From Fidelibacterota bacterium (GTDB lineage: Bacteria; Fidelibacterota; Marinisomatia; SCGC-AAA003-L08; TS1B11): a stretch of 43,809 nucleotides of DNA. The notes below the pieces were generated by a model. That model was given only the letters and a program-made list of their open reading frames with translations. It did no database searches and was not told the DNA's origin. The DNA lies in contig SCKI01000017.1 in NCBI GenBank assembly GCA_004124295.1, forward strand, positions 1 through 43,809, in the 5' to 3' direction. Positions 3,775 through 13,823 of the stretch are shown in pieces. How positions within the stretch are numbered: the first letter of the stretch is position 1; the number at the start of each line of letters is the position of its first letter. The position numbers and the translations under genes are program-made.

Positions 3775-6711
3775 CTACGGCAACGGGTTGGTGACGGTGT
3801 AGACAACTTTGCCGCCGTAAAATTTCAGATTTGATGAAGTTGTTGCAGCGCCAAAGGATAGATAAATATAATAGGCGTAAATATTATTATCCACTGTGAA
3901 AGTATAATTAGTCTTACTGACTTGAACAACTGAAGTCGATGGCCCAGACGTATTAAACGAACCGTGAGTAGCTACGCTGCCGCTGCTTAGTGTTTTTCTG
4001 TAAAAGCTTACATGAATGTTATACGTGGGGTCATTATCAACGATTGTCACCCAAAGCTCCTTTACCGAGGCGCCGTGGGGCATATTGAGTGGTGCCAGGT
4101 AGACTCCGGCAGCATTGGGAGAAATATAAGCCGATGTCCCGGTATAAGATTGCGTGCTGGTGATGGGATTCACGCTGGCGTTGGAAATGGAGAGGTACCG
4201 GGTGGTAGTGGGCACCGTGAGGTTGCCTGTCAAGGTCAGGTTGGCGAGGACGCTAGTGCTGTTGGGGTCGAGGTAGTAGGCCGTGTTATCCCAGTCAATC
4301 AGCCGGTCTGCCAGCCAGAGGTCCGTAAAAGACGCGTTGGTAGCCCCTATGTATGCGGCGACACCCTTAATGTAGACGGTATACAGATTGGAGATGGCAT
4401 TGGGGTCCAGATAGTAGGCCGCGTTATCCCAGTCATACAACTTGTCCGCCAGATAGAGGTCGGTCCCGGACGTGGCGCTGGCCCCGATGTATGCAGCAGC
4501 ACCCTTAATGAACAGGGTATACAGGTTTGAGGTGCCGTTGAGGTCCATGTAGTAGGCCGTGTTATCCCAATCAATAAGCCGGTCAGCCAGAAAGAGGTCG
4601 GTTACAGACGTGGCGCTGGCCCCTATGAATGCACTATTACCCTTAACGTACAGGTCAAACAGGCTAGAGCTGCCACTGGGGTCGAGATAGTAGGTTACGT
4701 TATCCCAGTCAATCAGCCGGTCGGCCAGATAGATGTCGGCCGCCGAAGCATTGCTGCTACCTACGTATACATCCCCGGCCACTTGCAGCTTGGCGGTTGA
4801 GAGCGCATTGGTTGTGCCAATCCCTAACGTGCCGCTAACGTATGAATCGCCAAGGCCGTAAAAGGCCCAGGCCTTGCCTGTCCCGAGCGGGTTGGCATGG
4901 CTGTAAACGCCGTAGGCAGACCCGGACCCATAGGCGGTGGCAAATGATTTTATGCCGTACCCCGAAGTGTTGCCGGAGTTCGCAGGGGTTGCCGTTGCAT
5001 ACAGCCCGTATGCGCTGACGCCGAATCCTTTCGGGCTTGATTCGACTCCAACGGCGTAATTGAAACTGTTTGAGGTGTCCACCACATGCAGCTTGTAGAA
5101 CGGCTGGAAGGAGAGCAGATCGCCGATGCCGAGCCGGCCTTGGCCGGTCATTCTGAGCAGCTCGTGGCTCCCGGCGGTGATTTTGAACGGCGTGCCACTA
5201 AAGGCTGATGTATCGGCCATGTGGATCTCCAGGCCGCCGCCGGTCTTATCGGTGTTTTCAATGCGGGCCACGGCATTGGTGGTGTTGTCCACCAAATCCA
5301 GGCGGAAATTCGGCGCCGTGACGCCAATACCCACCTTCCCAGCGGTGTAGGTGATGCCGCCGGTAACAGCGCCCCAGGGGCTGGTTGTCAGGCCCGTCAG
5401 GGCCGAGCCGTCTCCCGCGAATGCGGTGGCGGTAACCGTGCCGGCCACTTGCAGCTTCGTGCTGGGGGTGGCCGTCCCGATGCCCACCTTGCCACTGCCG
5501 ATAACTGTAACATCGCCATTGCCCAGGTTGAGGGCCCATGGAGACGCCGAGGTCTGCAAGGTCCCATCCGGGAACGTGATGCCATCCACTCCAGGGGTGC
5601 CACCGATGTGCAGCAGGGTCGCTGGGTTTGCGATACCGATGCCCACGTTGCCGACAGCGTCAATGGTGAGCCGGGGCGAGCCGATGTTCACGTCAATGAT
5701 CGAAAAACCGCCCGGAGGCACCAGGTTGATGTCCGAGCCGGTGGCGCCCACCGCAAAATCGAAGATGCGGCCGCCGACCAGGTTGTTCTCAAGGCGGATC
5801 ATGACGCCGGTGGGGTCGTAAGGGATGGCGTGAATCCGGGCCAACGGGGCAGCGGTTCCGAAGCCGACATGGCCGGCGGTAAAGAAAGCCTGGACGCCAT
5901 TCACGGCGTAGCCCCGGATTTTTGCAGAAACAGTACCGTCCACTGCGTTATGAAGATTTATAGCACCACCGAACGTCGGCGTGTTGAGCAGCGATATTCT
6001 ATTCTGCAGGGAGGCGGAATCCTTAATTGAGATGCCGCTTCCGGCGTTGACCAGTTCCAGTTGCCAGGTGGGAGCTGTCGTGCCAATGCCCACGTTACCC
6101 GAGCTGTAGCTGATATCGCCGCCAGCGCCACTGCTCCACAGGCCGCTGGTGGCAGCGCTGGTCTGCAGCGTCCCATCAGGGAATTTGATGCCGTCTACCC
6201 CGGCGATGCCGGTGATTTCCAGCCTGGCCGAAGGGTTGAGGGTGCCGATACCCACGCTGCCGCTGCTGGGAAAAACATTTTCCGTACCCTGGACCTCCTC
6301 GGCCGCAGCGGCCCTGACCGCGTAGGGGACAGTGGTGAACGGCACCAGCGGCAACATGGCCTCCCAGGCCGTTGTGTAAATGGAGATTTCAAGCCAGTAC
6401 TGCGTATCGAAGTTGAGCGCATCCAGCGGCGCAACGGGTCCCCCGAGCTGCACCGTAAACAGGCCGCCATTCACCGGGACGGCACTGCCGCTTGTGGCCA
6501 GGAATGTCTGGGTCCAGAGAATCGTGGCAGTCTGATTGCTACTGCCGTCATAGAGCTGGAAGCGCATGTCGTAGTTGCCGTCGGCGACGATGACGCCGTT
6601 GCTGTCCTTCAGCAGACCTTGGTAGGTGATGACCTTGGGTATCTGTCCCCACAACACCGAGGCTGTCAGCAGCACGGCGAGACCTGCGATAAATCCGCGA
6701 AACCGGTTCAT
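3775..6711 (-). CDS. Tail-fibre-like secreted repeat protein
   Basis: A 978-residue protein. The ATG at 6711 is preferred over longer in-frame starts because it has an AAGGAG ribosome site and begins a clear signal peptide (MNRFRGFIAG, cleavage near LWGQ). Residues about 20-150 form the domain beginning VITYQGLLKDSNG, common in large secreted FCB proteins. The middle holds many NVGIGT(T/A)xP-type motifs, as in phage tail-fibre and collar-like proteins, interleaved with DGTLQTSA segments. Near the C-terminus a 46-residue unit is repeated four times. The last ~100 residues (about 3775-4150) are coded by visibly more AT-rich DNA. A structural surface fibre or adhesin is likely. No intramolecular chaperone peptidase domain was seen at the end. 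It follows the CsgG-like gene by 82 nt. Confidence 0.8.
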   Translation of the reverse strand: MNRFRGFIAGLAVLLTASVLWGQIPKVITYQGLLKDSNGVIVADGNYDMRFQLYDGSSNQTATILWTQTFLATSGSAVPVNGGLFTVQLGGPVAPLDALNFDTQYWLEISIYTTAWEAMLPLVPFTTVPYAVRAAAAEEVQGTENVFPSSGSVGIGTLNPSARLEITGIAGVDGIKFPDGTLQTSAATSGLWSSGAGGDISYSSGNVGIGTTAPTWQLELVNAGSGISIKDSASLQNRISLLNTPTFGGAINLHNAVDGTVSAKIRGYAVNGVQAFFTAGHVGFGTAAPLARIHAIPYDPTGVMIRLENNLVGGRIFDFAVGATGSDINLVPPGGFSIIDVNIGSPRLTIDAVGNVGIGIANPATLLHIGGTPGVDGITFPDGTLQTSASPWALNLGNGDVTVIGSGKVGIGTATPSTKLQVAGTVTATAFAGDGSALTGLTTSPWGAVTGGITYTAGKVGIGVTAPNFRLDLVDNTTNAVARIENTDKTGGGLEIHMADTSAFSGTPFKITAGSHELLRMTGQGRLGIGDLLSFQPFYKLHVVDTSNSFNYAVGVESSPKGFGVSAYGLYATATPANSGNTSGYGIKSFATAYGSGSAYGVYSHANPLGTGKAWAFYGLGDSYVSGTLGIGTTNALSTAKLQVAGDVYVGSSNASAADIYLADRLIDWDNVTYYLDPSGSSSLFDLYVKGNSAFIGASATSVTDLFLADRLIDWDNTAYYMDLNGTSNLYTLFIKGAAAYIGASATSGTDLYLADKLYDWDNAAYYLDPNAISNLYTVYIKGVAAYIGATNASFTDLWLADRLIDWDNTAYYLDPNSTSVLANLTLTGNLTVPTTTRYLSISNASVNPITSTQSYTGTSAYISPNAAGVYLAPLNMPHGASVKELWVTIVDNDPTYNIHVSFYRKTLSSGSVATHGSFNTSGPSTSVVQVSKTNYTFTVDNNIYAYYIYLSFGAATTSSNLKFYGGKVVYTVTNPLP
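4189..4740 (-). repeat. Four tandem 138-bp (46-residue) in-frame repeats
   Basis: The anchor ggtc(g/a/t)gccag recurs at 4719, 4581, 4443 and 4305, exactly 138 bp apart. In protein each unit reads LADRLIDWDN, then YYLDP, then YxKG, then AYIGAS. The fourth (C-terminal) unit diverges in its second half. The pattern lies inside the fibre-like coding frame and is protein repetition, not CRISPR. Confidence 0.9.
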
Positions 6712-6793
6712 GGAAACTCCTTCAGTTCGTCTCATTTCTGACTGCCTGCTGCGCCGGCCCGATGCCTGGCGGCAGGTCTGGGCAATAGCAAGG

Positions 6794-7555
6794 TCAGGGA
6801 GGCGTCGGAAATTCCGGTGGCCCTTCGATAATGGTGGCGCCTCCGCCATCGCCGCCCAAGGTCAATGCATAGGCCGCGCCCCCTCCGGCAGCCGCCAGAA
6901 GTACCAGCCACAACACGCCCCGGCCACCCTTCTTCTCTTTCTCGTCCTGGGGACCAAGCTGTGCTGTCTGCGCCTGTCCCTGGCCGGTCCTGCCTACCTG
7001 GGCAAGATTGATGCCTGACGGCTCGTCCCGGAGCTGGCTCAGCAACGCGTCGGGATGCACCAGGCCCACCAGCTCCCAGGCAATATGCTCGATCTCGGTG
7101 ATCAGGCCGTCAATCTCGCCGCGGTAGTTCCGGCTCATGGTACTGGCGATGGCCCCGGTCTCAATGTCGATGGTGCGCAGGTCGAGGGTAAAGGTGGAGC
7201 CGATCTTGCCCACCGTCCCGGCGATCATCATGGTCACGCCGAGCAACTGGCCAATCTCCACCGCGCATTCATCGGAGGTACAACCGGCGAGCTGGAAGTC
7301 CTGTTCGGCCAATATGGCCTGCATCTGGCCCCGCTCTACCACATTCACGGCCCCGGTACGCACCAGTTCGGTACGCATGCGGTCGGTGAGGCTGGCTGCC
7401 TCTATGGCGGAGATGCCCCGGCCCTCCATGTCCATCACGGCCACCGATTCCTTTTCCTGGCCCATGGCCAGAAGCGGCAATAACAGCGCCAAGGCCAGCC
7501 AGGCCGGCCGGAAAAAGGGCGCCCTCACCGGGCAATTATGCTGGTGTATCAACAT
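6794..7555 (-). CDS. CsgG-like periplasmic/outer-membrane protein
   Basis: A 253-residue protein with an N-terminal export signal (hydrophobic LALALLLPLLAMGQ) followed by a CsgG/FlgO-like fold: VAVMDMEGRGIS, then LTDRMRTELVRTG, VVERGQMQAILAEQ, and the family-typical CTSDECAVEIGQLLGV with two cysteines. A Gly/Ala-rich hydrophobic segment follows near residue 215 (VLWLVLLAAAGGGAAYAL). CsgG proper forms the curli export pore. Many FCB relatives instead carry such proteins of unknown role beside surface proteins. ATG 7555 is used, but the GTG 27 nt downstream would give a shorter signal peptide. It is the first gene of a probable operon with the fibre and beta-helix genes. Confidence 0.8.
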   Translation of the reverse strand: MLIHQHNCPVRAPFFRPAWLALALLLPLLAMGQEKESVAVMDMEGRGISAIEAASLTDRMRTELVRTGAVNVVERGQMQAILAEQDFQLAGCTSDECAVEIGQLLGVTMMIAGTVGKIGSTFTLDLRTIDIETGAIASTMSRNYRGEIDGLITEIEHIAWELVGLVHPDALLSQLRDEPSGINLAQVGRTGQGQAQTAQLGPQDEKEKKGGRGVLWLVLLAAAGGGAAYALTLGGDGGGATIIEGPPEFPTPP

Positions 7556-7713: not shown

Positions 7714-7729
7714 TGTGACATGGGTCATA
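7714..7729. promoter_or_regulatory. CRP-like palindrome TGTGA-N6-TCATA
   Basis: TGTGA, six bases, then TCATA: one mismatch from the classical cAMP-CRP core TGTGA-N6-TCACA. It sits between the divergent CsgG-like gene (start 159 bp to the left) and the nucleotide cyclase (start about 480 bp to the right). A single match to a short consensus is weak evidence; the interest is its position beside a cyclase gene. Confidence 0.3.
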
Positions 7730-8206: not shown

Positions 8207-9955
8207 ATGACGCTCCATCGGAACCGCCGCTCCAGGCGGATACACAATTTTATGCCCCGCCTGGCCAAAGCTGTGGCAGCTTCAATGGAACGGAGTTTTC
8301 AAGCCGCCGCTCCTTTCCTGTTCACGGCCGCGCTATTGGGCATCATCGGGCACCCCCTCTTTTACCTGATCTGGACATACATCTTCCCCCAGCCCTACGA
8401 GAACCTTGCCCTGCGGCTGCTGGCGTCCGCCTCGGCCGTGCCAGTGCTGATGTGGCGCCGCTGGCCGTCCCGCTGGGCCCGCTTCCTGCCTCTGTATTTC
8501 CATTTTGTCGTCATCTATCATCTGCCGTTCCTGTTCCTCTATTTTCTGGTGCAAAACGGCTTCTCCCAGATCTGGGTCCTGTCCGCCATCGGTGCGGCTT
8601 TCGTGCTCACCTTCCTGATCGAATGGCGCGGCGTGGCGGTCATCTATCTGGCCGGCGCCGTGGCATGGGGTTTCATTGCGACCCTGGCGCCTGCCCACTC
8701 CACCCCCGATGAGCTGGCCCCCTATATCGCCGTGCTGCTGTTCCCCCTTTCCTTTGGGGCCATCTTCAGCTACCAGCTGGCCAAATCCCGCCAGGCCCAG
8801 CAGCGGCTGGAGCGCAGGATCAGACGTATCTCCGCTGAAAATACCCGCATGATGCAGGAACAGAACCGCCTGTTCAGCCTGTTTCTGTCCAACAGTATTG
8901 TCTCCCGGCTGCAGCAGTACCAATCCCAGTTCGGCCTGGAGAAGGCCATCTCCATGATCACCAGCCGGGAGCAGCGTTTCTGCGGCATTATGGAGGCCGA
9001 TGTGCGCAATTTCACACAGTTGTTCCTGAAGGATTCGGAGCACGACGTGGCCCAGCTCATCAGCCGCTGTTTCAACCAGATTACCGCCATCGGCCAGGAC
9101 TTGTCGGTGATCAAACCGGTGGGCGACGCCCTGTTCATTTACACTGACGATACCTCCGGCCGGGAGTTGGCCGTCACCAACGTGCTGGCGCTGGCGATCC
9201 TGTTCGTGCAGTCGCTGGAGGAGGTGAATGCGGTGCTGGTGGCGGAGCACGGTACCCCCCTTAATTTCGGCATTGCCGTGCATGCCGGGGAGGCCAGCTA
9301 CGGAAACCTGGCCAGCGAAACCCTCATTGACCCCACCATCATCGGCTTGAATGTGAACTTGACGGCCCGTCTGGAGGAGCTCACCAAGGAGCCGGCCCTG
9401 CAGGCCGTTATCGGCCCCAACGCCATCCTGCTTACCGATGCCGTCGCCGATTATGCCAGCAGCCTGGTTGACCCCCAACGGCTCACTCCCCTGGACCTCC
9501 ACAGTATGGGCCTCAAGGTCCGCGATTTCCCCGACGTCAGCCGGATATATGCCCTTTCCAGCGCCGCCGCCGCCACCCTGTTTGATATCGCCGGCCGGCA
9601 TGTCGCCACCCAGCGCAGCCGCCTGTCAACGCCCACGGCGCGCGTCGAGGCCAGTACCTATCATGGGGTGCCGTATTATTTTGAAATGCAAGGCGCCGGG
9701 CCGGACACGAACTGGACCATTCTTATCGATTTCGGCACGCTGCCGGGACAGATACTGAACGAATATGCCAAGCGCCACCTGGGCGACCTGGAGTATGATC
9801 TAAAGGAAGGTGACAGCCAGTGGCTGGTGCTGAACACGGCCCGGTCGCCGGGCGCATTCGATGAAGCCGATGTGGAGGCCCGGGTCCACCAGGTCATCCG
9901 GGACCTGGAGCCGATGGCGGCCAAACAGCGGCCCGTACCCGTGGTTCGGGCTTAG
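8207..9955 (+). CDS. Class III nucleotide cyclase with CqsS-type membrane receptor domain
   Basis: A 582-residue protein. ATG 8207 is chosen for its AAGGGAG site; longer in-frame GTG starts lack support. Residues about 33-190 form six predicted membrane helices resembling the CAI-1 receptor CqsS of Vibrio: a GHPLFYLIWTYIFPQPYENL block (49-68), then ARFLPLYF, LPFLFLYF and QIW at matching spacing. A basic coiled-coil linker (191-250) leads to a class III cyclase domain (255-455). All catalytic positions are present: metal Asp265 (ADVRNFT) and Asp307 (PVGDALF), base-binding Lys303 and Asp375, and transition-state Asn384 and Arg388 (NLTAR). The Lys/Asp pair suggests adenylate cyclase. A C-terminal ~120-residue segment is unrecognised. 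Known CqsS proteins carry a histidine kinase instead. The neighbour, overlapping tail to tail, is a CqsA-type autoinducer synthase, so this is probably its receptor (inference). Confidence 0.9.
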   Translation: MTLHRNRRSRRIHNFMPRLAKAVAASMERSFQAAAPFLFTAALLGIIGHPLFYLIWTYIFPQPYENLALRLLASASAVPVLMWRRWPSRWARFLPLYFHFVVIYHLPFLFLYFLVQNGFSQIWVLSAIGAAFVLTFLIEWRGVAVIYLAGAVAWGFIATLAPAHSTPDELAPYIAVLLFPLSFGAIFSYQLAKSRQAQQRLERRIRRISAENTRMMQEQNRLFSLFLSNSIVSRLQQYQSQFGLEKAISMITSREQRFCGIMEADVRNFTQLFLKDSEHDVAQLISRCFNQITAIGQDLSVIKPVGDALFIYTDDTSGRELAVTNVLALAILFVQSLEEVNAVLVAEHGTPLNFGIAVHAGEASYGNLASETLIDPTIIGLNVNLTARLEELTKEPALQAVIGPNAILLTDAVADYASSLVDPQRLTPLDLHSMGLKVRDFPDVSRIYALSSAAAATLFDIAGRHVATQRSRLSTPTARVEASTYHGVPYYFEMQGAGPDTNWTILIDFGTLPGQILNEYAKRHLGDLEYDLKEGDSQWLVLNTARSPGAFDEADVEARVHQVIRDLEPMAAKQRPVPVVRA

Positions 9956-11187
9956 GCGGCGCTCCGGCTGCGGATTCCTTGGCCCCGCCAGCGGCTCAGA
10001 CGAAATTGGCGGCGCAGGCCATCACACGCATCCACCACCCGATCCAGATCGCTTAGCGGCAGATCGCTGTGCAGGGAAAACCTGACCAATGCCCGGCCCC
10101 GCCCCGCCGCCGGCCAACAGAAAATTGACCCGAATACGTCCCGCTCTTCCAGGGCCTCCCGTACCTCCAGGGTCAGTTCCTCATCGCCGGGCTGAAGGGC
10201 CATAATGTGGGTCTCGCTACCGGCCAGGTCGAAGCCCAGGTCCAGCAGTTCGGCCCGCAGGTAGGCGGCCTTGTCCTCGAGGGCGGAGCGCTTCCCGTCC
10301 GCCTGGCGGATAACCTCCAGAGTAGCCGCGAAGGCCGCCGCCTCGCTGTCCAGCAACGCCGAGGAGAATATCGCCGGCAGGGAGGTGTAGCGGAAATATT
10401 CCAGATGCCGGGGACTGCCCAGAACGATTCCTCCACGGCCGGCAAACGCCTTGGAAAGGCTGGCAGTGATAAAGGGCACCTGAGCGGTCAGGCCAAACTC
10501 AGCCACCAGCCCAGCCCCGGCGGGCCCGAACAGACCCAGGGAATGGGATTCGTCCACCACCAGCAGAGCGCCGAACTGGTCGGCCAGATCGGCCATATCG
10601 GCCAGGGGACAGAGGTTTCCATTGGTGCTGTATAGGGAATCGACGGCCACAATGCCCGGCCCGTGGCGCTTGAGCATCTTTTCCAGGGAGGCCGGGTCGT
10701 TATGCTTGAACGGGCGCACCCGCGAGCCGCCGCTACGGGCCCCTTCCCACAGGGACATATGGGCCTGCATATCAAGATAAACGGTGACTTCCGGCCCGCC
10801 CAGCGCCTGTATCAGGCCGACGTTGGCCTTCCAGCCCGATTGGGCCAGGACCGCATCGGGCATACCCATCCAGTGGGCCATATCCTGCTCAAAGCGGCGC
10901 AGTATGCCGCCACCGTGGCGGAAAACATCGGAACGCATTTGTCCCCTGCCCCGGGCCGCCAGATGCTCGCGTTGACCGCGAATGATCCAGGGATCGCCAC
11001 TCAGCGCCAGGTAATCGTTGGAGGTGAGGTCGACACTGCCGGGACCGGGACTGCGGCCCTGTAAAATGTGCCTGCCAAAGCGCTTGGAGCGATGTTCGTA
11101 ATCGAGAATCTGGGCGCTGAGAAAGGGTGGTTCGGAGGAGGGACTGGCGGCAGATCGATAGGGCCGGAAATGCGGGGCTCTCGCCAT
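9952..11187 (-). CDS. cqsA: CqsA-family autoinducer synthase (PLP alpha-oxoamine synthase)
   Basis: A 411-residue fold-type I PLP enzyme. CqsA makes the alpha-hydroxyketone/aminoketone autoinducer CAI-1 from an acyl-CoA and an amino-acid-derived substrate (SAM in Vibrio); LqsA of Legionella is the related enzyme. Visible features: SNDYLAL (56-62), AQSGWKANVGL (115-125), AHMSLWEGAR (142-151, His143 to stack on PLP), HGPGIVAVDSLYST (175-188), VDESHSLG (211-218), PLP lysine Lys246 in TASLSKAF, PAIFSSALL (271-279) and VFGSIFCWPA (351-360). These blocks match Vibrio CqsA far better than KBL or BioF, notably WEGAR and VFGS(I/V)FC. Start ATG 11187 has an AAAGGA site 7 nt upstream. The stop overlaps the cyclase stop by two bases in a convergent arrangement. 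The acyl chain length of the product cannot be read. Confidence 0.9.
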   Translation of the reverse strand: MARAPHFRPYRSAASPSSEPPFLSAQILDYEHRSKRFGRHILQGRSPGPGSVDLTSNDYLALSGDPWIIRGQREHLAARGRGQMRSDVFRHGGGILRRFEQDMAHWMGMPDAVLAQSGWKANVGLIQALGGPEVTVYLDMQAHMSLWEGARSGGSRVRPFKHNDPASLEKMLKRHGPGIVAVDSLYSTNGNLCPLADMADLADQFGALLVVDESHSLGLFGPAGAGLVAEFGLTAQVPFITASLSKAFAGRGGIVLGSPRHLEYFRYTSLPAIFSSALLDSEAAAFAATLEVIRQADGKRSALEDKAAYLRAELLDLGFDLAGSETHIMALQPGDEELTLEVREALEERDVFGSIFCWPAAGRGRALVRFSLHSDLPLSDLDRVVDACDGLRRQFRLSRWRGQGIRSRSAA

Positions 11188-12668: not shown

Positions 12669-13169
12669 CTATTGCGTATTCACAAACTCCATTTTCAATA
12701 TATTGGTGATTTCCTGGATATATTCGATGAAATCAGCACTGTTGGGCAGACGAACGCCGATCGTATCGGAAACCAGTATGACCCTGTTTTCAGCAATGAA
12801 TGAGATCGGCCGGGTCGTCATCAGCCCATAGGATGTTCCCCGCAGTGGCCCGCCACGGATAAATATTCTGGTCTCAGCCGTAACACTCCCCTCGGCCATC
12901 TCATCGGCAAACGGTTCGCGGCTCTTCCAGGAAGTGCGGATATCGACGTGGGAAGGGGTCACCTCGTACCGGTAGATGGCATAGGCATAACGTTCCAGGA
13001 TGGTGTAGACGCGCTCCTCCAGCACCCGGTTTGTGGCCGGCCCCAGAGAGATCTCAAGATTGCGGTAGCCGCCGGAAAATGCCGCCGATCCTGAACCGGC
13101 GCAGCCGCCCAGAACGGCCAGCAGGCCAGCCCAGCTCGCCAGCCCAACGATTTTAGCCCTGAATATCAT
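12669..13169 (-). CDS. Small lipoprotein, paralogue of next gene
   Basis: A 166-residue protein with a signal peptide ending in a lipobox (LGGC, Cys23). GGAGG precedes ATG 13169. The mature part has RNLEISLGPATNRVLEERV, an aromatic-rich RYAYAIYRYE, the block (I)RGGPLRGT and a C-terminal EYIQEITNIL. It aligns over its whole length with the protein at 13314-13823, so the two are a tandem duplication. No family was recognised. An envelope-anchored role is inferred from the lipobox only. Confidence 0.8.
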   Translation of the reverse strand: MIFRAKIVGLASWAGLLAVLGGCAGSGSAAFSGGYRNLEISLGPATNRVLEERVYTILERYAYAIYRYEVTPSHVDIRTSWKSREPFADEMAEGSVTAETRIFIRGGPLRGTSYGLMTTRPISFIAENRVILVSDTIGVRLPNSADFIEYIQEITNILKMEFVNTQ

Positions 13170-13313: not shown

Positions 13314-13823
13314 TCACAGCCCCATGGAATCACGCAGGTATTCGGATTTCAACTCCGCGGCGATTTCCTGGATATAGGCCGTAAAATAAGCGCTGTTGGC
13401 CGGGGCCATACCTGTCGCTCCCTGTCCGCTATGGACTCTGTTTTCAGCCACCAGCCAGACCGGCCGCTGGGTCTGTTTGTTATTTGCCGTGCCCCGCAGC
13501 GGACCGCCGAGGAGTCTCAGCCGGGTTTCTGCGGATACGGCCCCTGCTTTCGCTTCGTCCTCAAACGGTTCGCGAATCAGCCAGGTGGTTTCGAAATAAA
13601 TCCTGGTGGGTGAGGTTTCCTCTCTGATGAGGATAAATCCGTATCGCTGCAACACCCAAAATGTTCTCTGTTCCACGGCCCGGGTCGTGGCCCGCCCCAG
13701 GCTGACCTCCAGCTCCCGGTATGTGCGGGTCCCCTCCTCCTCCAGCAATGCGGCACAGCCCCCGCTGACCGCCAACAACCATGCCCCCAGGAGGATGGTC
13801 AGGATATTCTTGTACTGCCGCAT
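13314..13823 (-). CDS. Small lipoprotein, paralogue of preceding gene
   Basis: A 169-residue protein with a lipobox SGGC (Cys23) and a ribosome site CGGAG before ATG 13823. It shares with its downstream neighbour the blocks RELEVSLGRATTR, FxxExxxGxVSAETR, LGGPLRGTAN, (L/F)(V/I)AENRV and YIQEIAAEL. The two genes are 144 bp apart, same strand, probably cotranscribed. Function unknown. Confidence 0.8.
   Translation of the reverse strand: MRQYKNILTILLGAWLLAVSGGCAALLEEEGTRTYRELEVSLGRATTRAVEQRTFWVLQRYGFILIREETSPTRIYFETTWLIREPFEDEAKAGAVSAETRLRLLGGPLRGTANNKQTQRPVWLVAENRVHSGQGATGMAPANSAYFTAYIQEIAAELKSEYLRDSMGL

Follow-up and report, generated by a model that had tools for sequence, protein, structure and literature searches.

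The stretch of DNA analysed here (the window) comprises 43,809 nucleotides of contig SCKI01000017.1 from a Fidelibacterota bacterium (assembly GCA_004124295.1). Within it, two convergent genes lie tail to tail with a 4-nucleotide (nt) overlap. One encodes a predicted receptor adenylate cyclase, in which a six-helix sensor of the type found in the quorum-sensing kinase CqsS precedes a class III cyclase domain; the other encodes an autoinducer synthase that sequence tests place in the CqsA family (Table 1). An initial annotation, made from the letters alone, had described two genes end to end with overlapping stops, an alpha-oxoamine synthase of CqsA type, an N terminus resembling CqsS and an intact class III cyclase at the C terminus, and had made co-occurrence of the genes in relatives a test of its reading; all of this is borne out below. 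The genes are convergent and therefore form no operon. A close homologue of the cyclase, P0002, is likewise 582 amino acids (aa) long and has a similar N-terminal start.

Table 1. Coordinates of the features discussed (gene coordinates include the stop codon; positions are those of the window unless a locus is named).
Feature	Position	Strand	Remarks
Predicted receptor adenylate cyclase with CqsS-type sensor	8207..9955	+	582 aa; ATG at 8207, TAG ends at 9955
Six-helix CqsS-type sensor domain, residues 28-195	8288..8791	+	Profile match to Vibrio CqsS; reciprocal search
W123, position of CqsS W104, head group	8573..8575	+	W in 27/27 cyclase rows and 3/3 Vibrio CqsS
S126, position of CqsS S107	8582..8584	+	S in 16, T in 11 of 27 cyclase rows
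F179, position of CqsS F162, head group	8741..8743	+	F in 27/27 cyclase rows and 10/10 kinase receptors shown
F187, position of V. cholerae CqsS C170, acyl-tail length	8765..8767	+	F in 10, I in 12, V in 3, L in 2 of 27 cyclase rows
Helical linker, sixth transmembrane helix to cyclase	8792..8977	+	Predicted helices 170-224, 229-242, 244-273
Class III cyclase catalytic domain	8978..9388	+	PF00211 match, residues 258-394; D265, K303, D307, T377, N384, R388
C-terminal alpha/beta domain, residues 440-570	9524..9916	+	Without Pfam match; present in 11/11 cyclase loci
Autoinducer synthase, CqsA family by sequence	9952..11187	-	411 aa; ATG at 11187, stop at 9952
CqsA-exporter fusions in other loci	L087:3622-7269, L093:3622-7254, L127:5200-8787, L136:2261-5899	+	PF03176 + PF00155

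Assignment of the synthase

By every sequence test applied, the synthase is a member of the CqsA family. It scores 476 bits against NF005526 ("alpha-hydroxyketone-type quorum-sensing autoinducer synthase"), for which the cut-off is 428, and falls below the cut-off of each of the other 22 NCBIfam models listed for it. Its best match among solved structures is the synthase of cholera autoinducer 1 (CAI-1; 302 bits), followed by serine palmitoyltransferase (SPT; 151 bits). A quick tree groups it with Vibrio CqsA and Legionella LqsA, with the 84 CqsA rows separated from 12 outgroup rows at a support of 100 in the Shimodaira-Hasegawa-like approximate likelihood ratio test (SH-aLRT); the outgroup consists of alpha-oxoamine synthases of the same phylum that score under the CqsA cut-off, 12 of 23 candidate loci being included. 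Cut-offs, structure matches and tree together rule out that the enzyme is a BioF, KBL or SPT. Two sequence blocks, WEGAR and VFGSIFCWPA, had been taken in the initial annotation as peculiar to CqsA. VFGSIFCWPA is, however, not general across the family: the motif FG[STA][IVL][FY]CWP occurs in 8 of the 84 CqsA rows, seven of which are the Neomarinimicrobiota rows, and in none of the outgroup, while a looser form of it (65/84) and WEG (56/84) are widespread among CqsA rows and likewise missing from all 12 outgroup rows.

Four loci of proteobacterial metagenome-assembled genomes (MAGs) carry a CqsA domain fused to the C terminus of an MMPL/RND-type exporter (~1200 aa), adjoining a free second CqsA. 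PF03176 and PF00155 were both found in all four fusions, NF005526 was above its cut-off in both of the two scanned, and the four loci belong to the group that is sister, in the CqsA tree, to the cyclase-paired clade described below. CqsA relatives on long tree branches were also seen in a cyanobacterial MAG (L068), a Nocardia (L108) and a Streptomyces (L134), and no six-helix receptor was found in the surrounding DNA examined at these three loci.

A CqsS-type sensor joined to a class III cyclase

A profile of sensor residues 28 to 195, built from the cyclases alone, matches all three Vibrio CqsS proteins over nearly their full sensor length (E values of 1.5e-34, 2e-34 and 4.9e-32); it gives nothing below an E value of 1 against eight (L001 to L008) of the host's nine other cyclase loci, and one short Vibrio open reading frame (ORF) reaches 0.007. 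Across 80 CqsA loci, the profile matches 63 of 2049 ORFs, spread over 62 loci, and none of the same 2049 ORFs when reversed. Conversely, the V. campbellii CqsS sensor retrieves from the host genome (2.55 Mb, 93% complete) the window cyclase alone (E value of 1.9e-24, 33% identity). By these comparisons, almost the entire six-helix sensor is homologous to that of CqsS; the reversed-ORF control, the other host cyclase loci and the reciprocal search rule out that the two are merely alike as membrane helices. Among solved structures, Foldseek found no relative of the sensor part, a single chain, from a cyclase, matching at an E value of ≤0.001. When the sensor was compared with 5.8 billion proteins, in a search that reaches only relatives sharing short exact words, 20 proteins were returned, namely 18 cyclases (the window's included) and 2 kinases; the named database relatives are labelled "adenylate/guanylate cyclase domain-containing protein" or "class 3 adenylate cyclase."

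The output half of the protein is a class III cyclase by sequence. PF00211 is the sole Pfam family above its cut-off (26.7 bits against 21.9), and the Pfam scan detected no histidine kinase domain in the receptor; the protein is therefore not a CqsS, though the sensor is common to both. All six catalytic residues are present and are identical in 27 of 27 aligned cyclases, a set that includes near relatives and leaves out P0005 and P0007 (near-copies of included loci) and P0001 (the window's own protein). We take D265 and D307 to be the metal-binding aspartate pair, N384 and R388 to act on the transition state and K303 and T377 to recognize the base. At the two base-recognition positions the window protein agrees with CyaB (3r5g), and the guanylyl cyclase Cya2 (2w01) has E and G; the sequence thus favours cyclic AMP (cAMP) over cyclic GMP (cGMP) as the product, and we predict an adenylate cyclase. 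The host genome encodes ten class III cyclase domains, among which that of the window has the lowest PF00211 score.

An AlphaFold2 model of moderate quality (mean predicted local distance difference test score [pLDDT], 73; predicted template modeling score, 0.43) comprises six long N-terminal helices, the catalytic domain, which is partly of low confidence, and a C-terminal alpha/beta domain. Linker residues 222 to 236 and 251 to 264 have a pLDDT of <50, and ten-residue blocks of the C-terminal domain average 66 to 91, except for 45 at residues 471 to 480. The leading solved matches of the model in Foldseek are cyclase catalytic domains, including Cya2 and an artificial phytochrome-regulated adenylate/guanylate cyclase.

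Co-occurrence of synthase and cyclase in three phyla

Among 245 genomes of the phylum, CqsA above the cut-off was found in 7, and the same 7 hold the full-length cyclase; the next cyclase match (E value of 1.8e-13) covers the catalytic part only. Four further genomes of the window's family have neither gene. In the phylum of a SAR324 genome (n = 52), 4 genomes have both genes and 48 neither, and in one betaproteobacterial family (n = 98), the corresponding numbers are 2 and 96. The 395 genomes surveyed, some of them incomplete, thus include 13 with both genes, 0 with one alone and 382 with neither; because the SAR324 and betaproteobacterial sets were built around genomes first identified by their CqsA, the negatives in them are independent but the positives are not. 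Betaproteobacterial genome G251 (locus L071), which was not among the surveyed genomes, brings the number with both genes to 14, and the two are adjacent and convergent in 13 of these, including one (G385) in which CqsA is cut by the contig end. The gene pair spans three phyla: Neomarinimicrobiota, SAR324 and Betaproteobacteria.

A scan of species genomes with a CqsA alignment gave 252 loci, and the 80 best-scoring ones were examined. Eleven of these carry a sensor-bearing cyclase, six being the loci of six of the seven phylum genomes above, and 51 carry a kinase-type receptor, an H-box motif being present in 48 of the latter; at the remaining 18, several of which end at contig ends, no sensor relative was seen in the surrounding DNA examined. 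Seven of the receptors found by profile were tested against Pfam, which identified HATPase_c in six, confirming them as histidine kinases, and returned no match for that of L099. The cyclase is convergent with CqsA in the window and in all 11 cyclase loci, with spacings from a 60-nt overlap to a 150-nt gap. No third gene common to all 12 loci was found; the other shared matches among the 45 rows listed are mostly opposite-strand frames overlapping the pair, and the rest are neighbours in a few loci.

Ligand-pocket residues

According to excerpts of the literature on CqsS, recognition of the C3 group of CAI-1 falls to W104 and S107 in helix 4, that of the head group to F162 and that of the tail length to C170 (PMC3376566, PMC5007282), and the C170F substitution in V. 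cholerae CqsS restricts the receptor to C8 tails (excerpt of PMC3285556). Numbering was checked on CqsS of Vibrio sp. THAF191d, which, counted from one possible start Met, places the residues at 104, 107 and 170. The head-group positions hardly differ between the window receptor, the other cyclases and Vibrio CqsS (Table 1). The two Legionella LqsS proteins shown have S at the W104 position, in agreement with the excerpted text of PMC3376566. At two gate positions, F160 is replaced by L in the window protein, with seven residue types over the 27 cyclases, and F166 is kept, with F in 14 and V in 13. With head-group residues kept and a variable tail pocket, related but distinct signals would be expected, and F187 suggests a short, C8-like signal tail in the window's genome.

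Descent of the pair

The synthases of the 12 cyclase pairs, together with that of SAR324 genome G246, form a group of 13 in the CqsA tree (SH-aLRT, 97) inside other, mostly kinase-paired CqsA, and the 12 cyclase sensors group together in a midpoint-rooted sensor tree (support, 85). Both are quick trees with SH-aLRT as the sole support measure, and the program warned of long branches, that of the window's CqsA included, and, for the CqsA tree, of unlike composition in nine rows. Pairwise distances of CqsA and sensor correlate, with an r of 0.84 for 64 pairs and of 0.81 when the 12 cyclase pairs are taken by themselves; in neither case did any of 2000 permutations reach so high a value. The simplest reading would be that a cyclase took the place of the kinase once and that the two genes then moved between phyla as a cassette.

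Two loci, whose synthases fall in the group sister to the cyclase-paired clade, encode CqsS-type receptors that lack the phosphoacceptor His of the H-box (L099:1595-2968, minus strand, with GQDLRTP; L127:8780-10261, minus strand, with AREIRAP). These might mark a step between kinase and cyclase.

Proposed circuit and alternatives

We consider it likely that a CAI-1-like signal made by CqsA gates the CqsS-type adenylate cyclase and that the two genes constitute a complete quorum-sensing circuit read out directly as cAMP; sequence and evolutionary evidence thus favour the interpretation in the initial annotation, which had named cAMP or cGMP as the readout. From the two protein sequences we infer the following chain. 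CqsA would make an autoinducer of the alpha-hydroxyketone or enaminoketone type, and this lipophilic molecule would reach the six-helix sensor and bind it inside the membrane. The resulting change would be passed along the helical linker to a class III cyclase presumably active as a homodimer, which would convert signal concentration directly into cAMP made from ATP. Binding would activate rather than inhibit the cyclase; activation is the better guess given that CAI-1 stimulates an engineered chimera of CqsS and the cyclase Rv1625c (see below). In excerpts on Vibrio, kinase activity dominates at low autoinducer (PMC5007282). Host CRP-family proteins would pass the cAMP message on. The host genome has seven matches to cyclic-nucleotide-binding domains, at least two of them in proteins about as large as CRP (229 and 281 aa), in which the DNA-binding part was judged by eye. 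A CRP-like palindrome with one mismatch lies at 7714-7729, upstream of the cyclase gene and some 490 nt from its start. We set it aside as evidence: the window holds three such sites with one mismatch and 11 with up to two, against a chance mean of 12, and a site upstream of the cyclase occurs in two of the seven genomes tested, the window's included.

Several observations weigh against the circuit as proposed. In the multiple alignment, the sensor is just 26 to 30% identical to that of Vibrio CqsS and 28 to 30% to that of Legionella LqsS, and the tail-length positions and part of the head-group gate vary among the cyclases. Correlated distances and co-inheritance are also expected from shared descent and joint transfer, and the layout may be inherited rather than functional, since Vibrio CqsA and CqsS are convergent too. 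SAR324 genome G246 has CqsA and cyclase on different contigs (L149; L062/L158), the sole unlinked case. G251 has, besides its CqsA-paired cyclase, a second, diverged one (L154; C228:9142-10695) that is 36% identical to the window's and has no CqsA within the 4.5 kb of surrounding DNA examined. As the host genome is 93% complete, a second receptor may have been missed. Finally, with ten class III cyclase domains in the host, cAMP from the window cyclase must compete with other sources and would have to be distinguishable by amount, time or place.

Two alternatives bear on what the sensor reads. The sensor could be a relic that now senses some other membrane lipid or a physical state, with the CqsA product read by another receptor. 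The six-helix adenylate cyclase Rv1625c is reportedly regulated by lipids through its membrane domain (excerpt of PMC12505454), and sensor positions 177, 183 and 187 vary among the cyclases. We nevertheless think a relic improbable, given that the W104 and F162 positions are unchanged in all 27 aligned cyclases, that each of the 395 genomes has either both synthase and sensor or neither and that a search of the host genome with the Vibrio CqsS sensor yields no further relative. There is similarly little probability that the CqsA product is an internal or membrane metabolite monitored by the cyclase in the producing cell, in which case the pair would serve metabolic feedback and not communication. 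Nothing in the two sequences indicates that the product leaves the cell, and no further partner gene is common to the 12 loci, both of which would suit feedback. Against it, products of characterized CqsA and LqsA enzymes act between cells (excerpt of PMC3376566), and the window synthase exceeds the equivalog cut-off of that family. Export of CqsA-type products is, moreover, plausible because CqsA is fused to an MMPL-type exporter in the four sister-group loci; such a synthase-exporter fusion might reveal the signal's route out of the cell.

A third alternative, that the catalytic domain makes cGMP, draws on the closest solved folds, which include the guanylyl cyclase Cya2 and the artificial adenylate/guanylate cyclase; K303 and T377, as in CyaB and invariant in the 27 aligned cyclases, differ from the E and G of Cya2 and make this a very improbable reading. 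That an unrelated membrane cyclase merely happens to lie beside an acyltransferase is scarcely credible: of the 14 genomes with both genes, which come from three phyla, 13 have them side by side and convergent, the sensor is homologous to CqsS, and co-occurrence counts, the reversed-ORF control (0/2049) and the reciprocal search rule out chance adjacency.

Relation to known systems

In Vibrio, the CqsS kinase feeds LuxU/LuxO. The proposed circuit of CqsA-made signal and receptor cyclase shares with Vibrio CqsA/CqsS the synthase family, the six-helix sensor family, the adjacent convergent genes (seen in three Vibrio loci, L137 to L139) and the residues at the W104, S107 and F162 positions. It differs in output, which is a histidine kinase plus receiver (PF02518, PF00072) in CqsS and a class III cyclase here. 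Legionella LqsA/LqsS, which uses Legionella autoinducer 1, and Jqs-type clusters likewise have a CqsA-family synthase with a six-helix receptor of this family close by (L084, L109 and L128); LqsS is a kinase and, in the two proteins shown and in the excerpted text of PMC3376566, has S instead of W at the W104 position. As stated in an excerpt of PMC3566124, the gene adjoins that of the cognate sensor kinase in all organisms with such a synthase; the window pair is an exception, in which the synthase adjoins a predicted receptor cyclase instead.

Other six-helix class III cyclases, such as Rv1625c, share the order of six-helix anchor and catalytic domain. To our knowledge, their ligands are not known or were found through screening; the window cyclase, unlike these, has the synthase of its likely ligand encoded next door. 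In a map of 1616 six-helix modules, as excerpted from PMC4821796, these cyclase anchors form clusters apart from CqsS, whose own cluster consists of sensory histidine kinases with local matches of ~20 to 25% identity to cyclase anchors; the natural cyclase of the window, by comparison, matches CqsS over nearly the whole sensor. The same source (Beltz et al. 2016, PMC4821796) reports in its excerpted text that an engineered CqsS-Rv1625c adenylate cyclase is stimulated 4.8-fold by CAI-1, in agreement with the initial annotation, which had pointed to such a chimera as showing the coupling to be mechanically possible. In it, a CqsS six-helix sensor drives a class III cyclase, but the protein was made in the laboratory, and the window pair is best read as its natural counterpart. 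The excerpted text of a 2025 review mentions engineered CqsS cyclases only (PMC12414865). We recognized no description of a natural CqsS-type cyclase in the open-licence PubMed Central literature, nor one of a natural synthase-receptor-cyclase pair, consistent with the initial annotation, which had known of none; as far as searched, coupling of a CqsS sensor to a cyclase has been reported only as a laboratory construct.

We think it likely that the window pair represents a third, hitherto unrecognized output class of CqsA-type quorum sensing, present in at least three phyla, in which a one-protein receptor would carry the autoinducer signal straight to cAMP. In that case the class would have arisen once by replacement of the kinase, spread as a two-gene cassette and provided the first class III cyclase with a chemoreceptor-derived anchor and its ligand's synthase next door. 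If true, lineages seen chiefly through metagenomes would link quorum sensing to cAMP with no phosphorelay in between, and synthetic biology would gain a part made of two genes. It has long been asked whether adenylate cyclases use their six-helix anchors as receptors; since no ligand was known for the cyclase's own anchor, the question had been approached with the engineered CqsS-cyclase chimera. A natural fusion with the synthase of its likely ligand beside it therefore makes this question testable with two genes in Escherichia coli.

Neighbouring genes

Two further features of the window were noted by eye. An ORF of 1024 residues (3775-6849, minus strand) contains many repeats of the type GNVGIGT..P and recalls repeat surface proteins. 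On the other side of the pair, 12669-13169 and 13314-13823 (minus strand) encode adjoining small proteins that are alike in sequence, have lipoprotein-like starts and are probably the product of a tandem duplication.

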